Assembly: GCF_965363235.1 (NCBI RefSeq) | Contig: NC_134840.1 | Span: 86,462,916-86,526,915 of the forward strand | Origin: Mytilus galloprovincialis | Taxonomy: Eukaryota > Mollusca > Bivalvia > Mytilida > Mytilidae | Reading direction: 5' to 3' | DNA length: 64,000 nt | Part shown: positions 17,301-20,300 of the stretch, in pieces | Layout of the letters: every line of letters begins with the position of its first letter | How positions within the stretch are numbered: the stretch's first letter is position 1 | Notes under the pieces: generated by a model | Told to the model about the DNA's origin: nothing | The model's database searches: none | What the model saw: the letters and a program-made list of their open reading frames with translations, nothing else | Made by a program: the position numbers and the translations under genes

Positions 17301-20300
17301 AGTATGTAAAATGTGATATTGTTACAGGAACCATTGTGACATCATATATAAATGCAAGTTACAATTACAAAACACCTTCTATCTTGATGTATTGTTTAAG
17401 CACTGGTCAATTGCCAAACATATAACAAATACTCGTGATCATTTAACATATTCATGATATTTAAAAAAGCCGGAAAATGTATCAAAATTTAAGCAATTAG
17501 ATAACAAATGACATAAACGGCATTAAAGTAAAAATAACTCTCTCAATGTAATCATTGAATATCTAAATTTCAACAATTTCCCTCTTATGTAAAATAGATA
17601 TATTTAGTGCTTTTAAACAGTTTTTAGTAATAACAAGACCTTAAATCTTTCTACGCTTTACACAAAAACTGAATAATGTAAAAACAATTCCATGTGTTAG
17701 GTATATTAAAATATTTTGGAGGAACCACTTTGATTACACAACAAATACACCAAAGATGCACTTCCCTCAGTTCCTGTTTGTTACCTTGATTTGTAACTTT
17801 CTAACCGATTAGCGCGATCTGAAATCAGTTAACAACTAGCTGTTGCCCTAATTGAACATTTCAAATTCTACATTTTATTTATAAAACCAAAGCTGAAGGT
17901 TACTTACTGTTAAGTCCAGTTCTTCCATTTCACTACTTTCAGATTCATTGATAACTTTAGCCAACGCAATAGCTCCTGCGGTAGTTAATAGGTTATTCCC
18001 CATCTGTAACGAAATAATTAAAATACTGGTATACATATTGCCGAAAGCTATATTAATTTATTTAAATGTGTGTAGTTTTTGTGTTTGCCTTTATCTAATT
18101 TTGAAATTTGATTAACGCCAATTGATACAGTAAAACTCGATAGAATTGTATAATATTATGCACTGTTGAAATCTTCATATTTTCATAAACTCATATATTC
18201 AGTTAAAATTTACATAATGAAAGCTTAGTAAAAGTAAAAGCTATGAAGAAAATATGACATCTAAAAACATGGTTCAAAAAGTTTTCCCATATCATAATCC
18301 CTTTTCTCGTGAGTTTGGACTGAATTTGTCAATGCATTAACACGTATATAGTCTTCATATACACATGAGTAGGATAATTTCATACAGTTCTCAATGCTCT
18401 TCAACTTCATACTTTATTTGGCCATTTAAACATTTTTTGATTCGAGCGTCACTGATGAGTCTTTTGTAGACGAAACGCGCGTCTGGCGTAAATATAAATT
18501 TTTAATCCTGGTATCTATGATGAGTATATTTACAACCACTGGGTCGATTCCACTGCTGGTGGAGACTTATTTCCCCGAGGGTATCCCAAACCCAGTAGTC
18601 AGCACTTCCGTGTTGACTTGAGTTATCATTGATATGGTCATAATTATAAATTTACTGTAAACAAAATTTGGAATTTTAGAAATACTAAGGCTTTTCTACC
18701 TCATGAATAAATTACCTTAGCTGTATTTGGCAAAACTTTTATGAATTTTAGTCCTCAATGCTCTTCAACTTCATACTTTATTTGGCCATTTAAATTTTTT
18801 TGATTCGAGCGTCACTGATGAGTCTTTTGTAGACGAAACGCGCGTCTGGCGTAAATATAAATTATTAATCCTGGTATCTATGATGAGTTTATTTATATGA
18901 TAAAAAATGGGAAGGCTAGTGCGCTAAGCTTTAAAAATAAGTTACAGTAAAAATGCCATATATCACAGATTTGCATAGGAGTGTGCTTACAACTGTGATA
19001 TGTTATACGAAAAGCCAAAGAACAATGCATCTTTCATTCTAAAGTATTATTGGAGATGGATGAATTATTTCAACATTTATATAGAAGGATCGTCAACTTT
19101 GTCTTAAGTTTATCAAATTTAAAAAAACCAATGCATTGTTTTTTTTAAATCGATAAGCTTGTTGGTGCTTATGATTGAGTTATTTTGTATTTTGTAAAAT
19201 AAAAAAAGGTACCAAGCTCCAATAAAAATTCAAAACGGAAAGTCCCTCATCAAATAGCAATATCAAAAGCTCAAAAACGTCAAACGGCTACGCATGAAAA
19301 CCAACCGTCATATTCCTGACTTGGTGCATGTATTTCCCCATGCAGAATAGATTAAACCTGAGTTTATAGCTCGCATAACATCTTACTTGTAGGAAAGTCT
19401 TATGTATATATCTAATACTGATATACTCAAGGCAAGATTTTTAGAAAGCCTAAGGCACACTTAATTCTGTGAACATTAGCAAACAGATCGAGCCTTTACT
19501 GAGAATATCTTTGTAAGAAGAAACAAGAATGTGTCCATAGCACACGGATGCTCCACTCGCACTATCATTTTTCATGTTCAGTGGACCGTGAAATTGAGGT
19601 CAAAACTTTAATTTGGCATTTAAATTAGAAAGATCTATCATAGGGAACGTGTGTACTAAGTTTCAAGTTGATTTGACTTCAACTTCATCAAAAACAACCT
19701 TGAACAAAAACTTTAACCTGAATCGGGACGAACGGACGCACGGACGAACGGACGCACAGACCAGAAAACATAATGGAACTCTACTATCGTAGATGGGGCA
19801 TAAAAATAGTGATCTTGAGAATGTGCAAATATTCTAATATCTATATAATACCAATATACAACAAGAAAGACATACACCATATGTAAATCAGGTTTGACTT
19901 TGATTCTTATAAGAAACATTTACAAAACTCCGGCACTATATATACACTAAGTCATCTGCTGCATGATTTTCTTCTTCTTTTTTATTTTTATTTATTTGTT
20001 ACTTCCCTGCCTTCAGGAAGGATCTTGGAACCAGTAAAGGTATAGGAATATTAAGATTGCCTGGGACAATTCGATTAACTCTTTGTTATAACCAGTTATA
20101 TGAGTAATTATAGGAAATTTAATTTCCAAAACCTTGCAAACCGGAAGTGTTTAATCGTCCACTCTTTAGAAATAGGATGTGAACTAATTACATCTTAAAG
20201 TTATTTAATCAATAATGCATTACCATAATTACAAAAATCAATTTAAAGTTATTAAATCATTATTTACTTGCGTGATTAGACACTCTTTGAAGTAGTTTGC

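Follow-up and report, generated by a model that had tools for sequence, protein, structure and literature searches.

Copies of a mussel hammerhead retrozyme mostly end at one site downstream of the ribozyme cut, consistent with reverse transcription from a fixed start

Non-LTR retrozymes of the mussel Mytilus galloprovincialis were described by Cervera and de la Pena (2020; PMC7229834), who reported ~5000 type I HHRs in two related families, with repeats of 350–390 bp. These ribozymes self-cleave slowly and co-transcriptionally, and retrozyme RNA is abundant in mussel tissue, where it is mainly circular. Where target duplications occur, they exceed 4 bp. The circles were proposed to be reverse-transcribed by enzymes of LINEs or PLEs; the mechanism is left open in the accessible text of that article, as is the mobilising mechanism of animal retrozymes in that of PMC7761336 and PMC11722881. 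For a PLE of Anolis (PAc), Frangieh et al. (2024; PMC11167929) reported that it cuts AT-rich DNA and, in vitro, starts reverse transcription internally on its own RNA, in an AC-rich stem-loop that lies downstream of the hammerhead. There are two adjacent start sites, and genomic copies end there. In this assay hammerhead mutants insert equally well, and the enzyme mainly uses uncleaved RNA; the role of the PLE hammerhead is unexplained in the accessible text of published accounts.

The window analysed here, a stretch of 64,000 nt of the M. galloprovincialis genome, contains a retrozyme insert at 18386–18895 (plus strand), which spans 510 nt or 1.40 units, is 5´-truncated and has the fixed 3´ end described below. 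As the preliminary description had claimed, two hammerheads lie in the same orientation exactly 363 nt apart, and the coordinates given there are right; the two motifs are identical. Both type I hammerheads, at 18446–18489 and 18809–18852 on the plus strand, are matched over their full length by Rfam RF00163 (Hammerhead_1) at 32.5 bits each (E 1.3e-5). This is slightly below the gathering score of 34 bits, so a default Rfam scan of the whole window lists no hammerhead. The predicted cuts fall where they had been placed, after C18483 and C18846, between GTC and TGGCG at both ribozymes. Stem I has the 6 bp ascribed to it, two of which are G-U pairs by the letters. A chance motif was rejected, because matches to the 37-mer ribozyme core, which is exact at 18452 and 18815 and recurs with two mismatches at 14880, average 0 over 100 shuffles. 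The predicted monomer (18484–18846, plus strand; 363 nt, 35% GC) has a longest open stretch of 79 codons when read as a circle. The insert has a low GC content and no coding capacity, as in metazoan non-LTR retrozymes, and the 363-bp hammerhead spacing falls within the 150–450-bp tandem repeats of these elements. The folding energies are unremarkable for the monomer (z -0.9) and for three ribozyme stretches (z -0.6, -0.6 and 0.0), and the ribozyme stretch in isolation has a minimum-energy fold other than that of the hammerhead.

The earlier reading of a retrozyme-like element with a 363-nt monomer and the layout and size of known retrozymes is backed by the Rfam match and by comparison with the published mussel retrozymes, whose ribozyme type, repeat size and copy number agree and whose RNA is circular. 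Other parts of it need revision. The insert had been called a dimer and is a 5´-truncated 1.4-mer, short of a full dimer. Its flanks had been called duplicated, and its two ends do share about 147 nt (146 aligned); they are not identical, with 4 mismatches and 2 one-base indels. With this divergence a recent origin is not supported; nor is constraint, the other option offered, because 4 random mismatches would spare the 47-nt ribozyme block with a probability of 0.21. Over only 96 compared positions, the two units of the window insert differ by 5.2%, a distance that 9 of 51 other inserts equal or undercut.

The 32-nt ribozyme core has 3808 exact copies in the host genome (1.385 Gb, 331 contigs; reversed control 0), and a tail near-identical to that of the window has 5294 exact occurrences. 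The ribozyme is kept across the copies compared, and a second retrozyme family with a shorter tail is present. Judged by its sequence, the window element is a copy of a known kind, the metazoan non-LTR retrozyme. Its membership in the very family published for the mussel is suggested by agreement in type, size and copy number and by the occurrence of two families, rather than by the letters of the deposited circRNAs MN642551–MN642576. A plant LTR retrozyme was ruled out, as the type I model matched and there is no fixed 5´ boundary; the inserts have no common 5´ boundary and hence no LTR pair. Three related copies lie elsewhere in the window with the same end phase: an older second-family copy with a hammerhead (14783–14960, plus strand; 81% to phase 48 with the window unit), an old copy with a decayed hammerhead (36423–36558, plus strand; 75%, with 7 changes in the ribozyme stretch) and an old copy at 42774–42988 on the minus strand (74%). 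All four window copies extend to phase 48–51 when queried with the unit of the window itself; the copy at 14783 aligned only to phase 8 when the unit of locus L024 was the query. The window also holds a LINE-like reverse transcriptase frame in two pieces, judged by letters (44310–45759, minus strand), and a tandem repeat of ~169 bp (761–1738), which the flank sequence of locus L035 matches too.

To characterize where copies begin and end, 60 genome regions were sampled, which take in 74 of 100 listed places (of the 3808 copies), all within the first 36 Mb of one chromosome; the window was added to them. BLAST matches were chained to a unit, and phase was counted from the ribozyme cut. Among 87 chained inserts, 6 within 60 nt of a locus end were dropped, and 11 of the remaining 81 with less than 83% identity were set apart, which leaves 70 inserts at 83% identity or more. 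As an exact ribozyme was required, long inserts are favoured in this sample. The 3´ end lies at phase 43–54 in 59 of the 70 inserts and at phase 46–50 in 50 of these, at the boundary between GTTTATTT and ACA, while 11 of 70 end away from this site and 1 of 70 starts at phase 43–54. The older chains (below 83% identity) end at phase 43–54 in 5 of 11 cases and at phase 37, the end of the second family's shorter tail, in 4 of 11. Read by letters, 47 of 61 tails stop 9–13 letters into GAGTTTATTTACA; the 61 include a few internal units that carry a point change and are no real ends. In the window, the 3´ terminal tail is CCTGGTATCTATGATGAGTTTATTTA (18870–18895, plus strand), which ends the insert and probably marks the start of reverse transcription. 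The same site recurs within the unit as TACAAC (18531–18536, plus strand), +48 to +53 from the first cut. In the accessible text of the literature searched (PMC7229834, PMC11167929, PMC7761336, PMC3846280, PMC8490949, PMC11722881), neither a fixed retrozyme 3´ end nor its match to PLE internal initiation was found.

The 5´ ends are scattered among the inserts. After the removal of 5 duplicate places, 59 inserts are reduced to 54, with lengths from 25 to 2527 nt that pass straight through the unit length; 18 of the 54 exceed 411 nt and 34 do not exceed 365 nt. Among the 20 inserts that exceed one unit, the 5´ phases are indistinguishable from uniform (KS p 0.78). An exponential distribution is not rejected for the lengths of the 52 inserts of at least 85 nt (KS p 0.24); the 25-nt tail at L041 is counted among the 54 and lies below the limit of this fit.

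The state of the template was assessed with a second sample of 19 short loci, which were picked by an exact tail, without an exact ribozyme core nearby. A start at +48 on a cleaved linear monomer would halt after 48 nt, at the 5´ end of the RNA. The cut site is crossed in 15 of the 19 copies, two of which have small deletions there, so the cleaved linear monomer was not the template of these 15. Three further copies consist of tails of about 26–30 nt only (L070, L075 and L081), and one (L088) begins at the cut within one base, as expected of run-off on cleaved RNA. The templates were therefore mostly closed or uncleaved at the cut site. Sister units are each other's closest match in 8 of 15 multi-unit inserts; in the other 7, the window insert among them, they are not closest. 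At L051 (1753–2566), a first-family stretch runs exactly to its fixed 3´ end and is followed directly by second-family sequence, which begins 5 nt upstream of its own cut; this arrangement accounts for sister units that are not closest at this locus; the junction looks like either a template jump between two RNAs or neighbouring insertions. The insert at L024 (549–3075) has 6.9 units, in which near-identical inner units alternate at one base (A-B-A-B) and the outer units are more divergent. This pattern fits a dimeric circle, a later DNA-level expansion or a duplicated dimer.

Three tandem copies of a 3175-bp stretch occupy C1:19816002-19825522 (L069, L089 and L090); they begin exactly at the first base past the hammerhead cut (TGGCG), and both inner junctions have 4 additional bases (tata). 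The array looks like in-place run-off copying of a ribozyme-cleaved read-through transcript. A large palindrome at L026 (1501–3998) has the same insert and flanks on both strands, and L054 has the same insert and flanks. The 1,237-bp arrays of L022 and L023, which are nearly identical and lie at two places 3.2 Mb apart, were considered and interpreted as an older tandem repeat that contains a retrozyme insert.

Immediately 3´ of the start site, a conserved RNA structure of four helices (18538–18617, plus strand) has 95.4% of cells paired across 28 copies, in two hairpins. In the same 28 copies, 12 double-change cells were counted against 2.6 in shuffles (0 of 500 as high); pairs in which a double change occurs number 3, compared with 2.0 in shuffles, which is not unusual (131 of 500). 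An alternative inner stem performed no better than shuffles and was discarded. The structured stretch may serve as an enzyme-binding domain. By our own count on the RNA printed in PMC11167929, the hammerhead cut of PAc is followed by a TACAAC motif at +45 to +50 and by the main start at +82 to +89. The retrozyme TACAAC lies at +47 to +52 in a typical unit, one base short of its position in the window, and the second Anolis start may be located at the PAc TACAAC. Only this register is suggestive, because the retrozyme and the Anolis start region are overall no more similar than expected by chance (254 of 500 shuffles score as high).

Three inserts could be compared with empty copies of host repeats, two clearly and one (L067) through divergence; by eye, 0–3 nt are duplicated in these alignments. 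A first-family copy at L079, which lies in reverse orientation within a second-family copy, has ~5 nt (ATTTA) common to target and tail, again by eye. The target-duplication tests used 58 inserts less 6, that is 52. Anchored exact tests revealed duplications of at least 9 nt in 0 of 52 inserts, and the plain unanchored test revealed no excess (means 5.67 and 5.41). When the test was anchored and overlap with the tail was allowed, a 6–8 nt repeat was present in 14 of 52 inserts, compared with 5.1 expected (permutation p 2e-4), an excess that is post hoc and appears only with both the anchoring and the overlap into the tail. For the window insert, no target duplication was seen, and its joined flanks, taken as the empty site, match their own locus only. 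Target duplications are thus short, ragged or absent.

The host genome has PLEs of its own. GIY-YIG was found at a minimum of 147 places (150 of 1001 first-look candidates scored), in frames of up to 911 aa. The three full PLE frames scanned contain both RVT_1 and GIY-YIG, with RVT_1 just below the cut-off in two. PLE copies at L094–L097 have open frames of 784–911 aa, nearly identical inverted copies and TA repeats, and appear to be young families; those of L094–L096 are located at TA repeats, as judged by eye. A sequence tail common to the retrozyme and the PLEs of loci L092–L096 was not found above shuffles, and a retrozyme copy 1.2 kb downstream of the PLE frame at L097 was read as a coincidence.

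At L092, a GIY-YIG frame is flanked by two inverted copies of an element with a minimal hammerhead, the 33-mer of which has 93 genome occurrences (for example, C3:22205139-22207315 and C9:76617689-76622378). Fourteen copies were read, 12 from the plus-strand list and the two of L092. Five of the 14 depart from the common sequence at +56 to +62 from the cut, three of them exactly after CTACA, at +57, and nine continue alike. In these 5 of 14 copies, the PLE-linked hammerhead element shows the same ribozyme-to-end geometry as the retrozyme. Same-strand neighbours are spaced 1058–1078 bp apart in 20 cases, and opposite-strand neighbours within 3 kb are arranged minus-then-plus in 17 of 17 cases; an inverted arrangement is also known for PLEs (PMC3846280). 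A 1.07-kb unit would be too short for frames of 780–910 aa, so the minimal-hammerhead elements may be non-autonomous PLE derivatives, perhaps with one hammerhead per unit, that stand between PLEs and retrozymes.

The fixed 3´ end and the scattered 5´ ends are the signature of internal initiation seen in vitro for a PLE (PMC11167929), which suggests that a PLE enzyme likely copies the circle. The explanation that we consider probable as a whole is a self-cleaving retrozyme with a likely circular RNA, which is likely copied by a PLE from a fixed start and round the circle. RNA of the window insert is predicted to self-cleave to 363 nt and would likely close into a circle. A PLE reverse transcriptase would start at one fixed site ~48 nt downstream of the cut and run round the circle until it falls off, leaving scattered 5´ ends. 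On a linear transcript, cDNA from +48 would lose 5´ sequence in every generation; on a circle, each full turn would bring back a complete unit, bounded by a ribozyme on either side. The ribozyme and RNA ligation would in this way undo 5´ truncation. We infer that the circle, and not an uncleaved multimer, is the template, that the enzyme is that of a PLE and that the window copy is cleaved. Against this explanation stand the 11 of 70 inserts that end elsewhere and the 7 of 15 multi-unit inserts in which sister units are not closest. The Anolis assay, the possible DNA-level expansion at L024, the lack of a tail common to retrozyme and PLEs, the chance-level similarity to the Anolis start region, the fold of the isolated ribozyme, the bias of the sample to long inserts and the plain duplication test also count against it. 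A broader proposal, to which we give slightly less than an even chance, is that animal retrozymes are satellites of PLEs, with a fixed start ~47–57 nt past the cut, a hammerhead that serves circle closure and the ~1.07-kb elements as the missing intermediate; it is made slightly less likely by the nine of 14 PLE-linked copies that continue past the end site and show no end.

The same kind of enzyme and the same start could instead act on an uncleaved, multimeric linear transcript, with circles and self-cleavage as by-products of transcription. The 15 of 19 copies that cross the cut fit such a template as well, the mussel ribozymes cleave slowly (PMC7229834), and in Anolis hammerhead mutants insert unchanged and unprocessed RNA is the main substrate (PMC11167929). 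With a linear template, however, the element would only get shorter from one generation to the next, whereas 18 of 54 inserts are longer than 411 nt, and the main form in mussel tissue is circular (PMC7229834). Circles are favoured on these two grounds, and we regard the multimer as rather unlikely, while a LINE-type reverse transcriptase in place of a PLE enzyme is a shade less likely still. LINEs are named as candidates in PMC7229834, a LINE-like frame lies in the window itself, and target-primed reverse transcription in general leaves a fixed 3´ end and scattered 5´ ends. What argues for the PLE enzyme over that of a LINE is the location of the end, which falls within the circle and, like the start of PLE internal initiation (PMC11167929), downstream of the hammerhead, together with the same geometry in the minimal-hammerhead element beside a GIY-YIG frame and with target duplications that are short or absent.

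Spread as DNA, either by rolling-circle (Helitron-like) transposition or as excised circular satellite DNA, is highly improbable. It would fit the fixed end, the tandem multimers and the near absence of target duplications, and the inner units of L024 look homogenised; these points are outweighed by the circular RNA documented for such elements (PMC7229834), by the conserved ribozyme and covarying structured stretch expected of a functional RNA, and by inserts that are mostly below one unit (34 of 54 at 365 nt or less). A separate question is whether the window locus is an old, inert copy, whatever the rest of the family does, and here the balance is even: the locus is one among thousands of copies and its end repeats have diverged (4 mismatches and 2 indels in 146 nt), whereas the locus retains two intact ribozyme motifs and an intact full unit between them, as a source of circles requires. 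For the family, circular repair of 5´ truncation would explain simply why a retroelement carries a ribozyme, and the fixed 3´ end with its PLE-linked parallel makes the proposed copying testable at the bench with a single enzyme, a single RNA and a mapped start. An element that is ordinary in kind leads in this manner to a specific and testable answer on how animal retrozymes spread.

Compared with known systems, the window element shares with the plant LTR retrozymes (PMC7229834, PMC11722881) two hammerheads that bound the released RNA and, by prediction, circular RNA. The plant elements differ in having type III hammerheads, LTRs, a PBS and a PPT, 4-bp target duplications and units of ~700 nt. 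The Anolis PLE PAc (PMC11167929) is alike in that its copies end within the RNA, downstream of the hammerhead and beside an AC-rich structured stretch, and in its AT-rich targets and partial tandems. In contrast to the PLEs, which encode a reverse transcriptase and a GIY-YIG endonuclease and carry minimal hammerheads, the retrozyme is non-coding and its hammerhead has a stem III; the main start of PAc, moreover, lies at +82 to +89, compared with +48 for the retrozyme. The closest system is that of the mussel non-LTR retrozymes (PMC7229834), with which the present element has in common type I hammerheads, two related families, thousands of copies, 350–390-bp repeats, a low GC content, tandem partial units and, judged by the absence of a common 5´ boundary, the lack of LTR-type signals, and for which circular RNA has been demonstrated. 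To the accessible text of that description the present analysis adds a 3´ end fixed 46–50 nt past the cut, scattered 5´ ends and near-absent target duplications.
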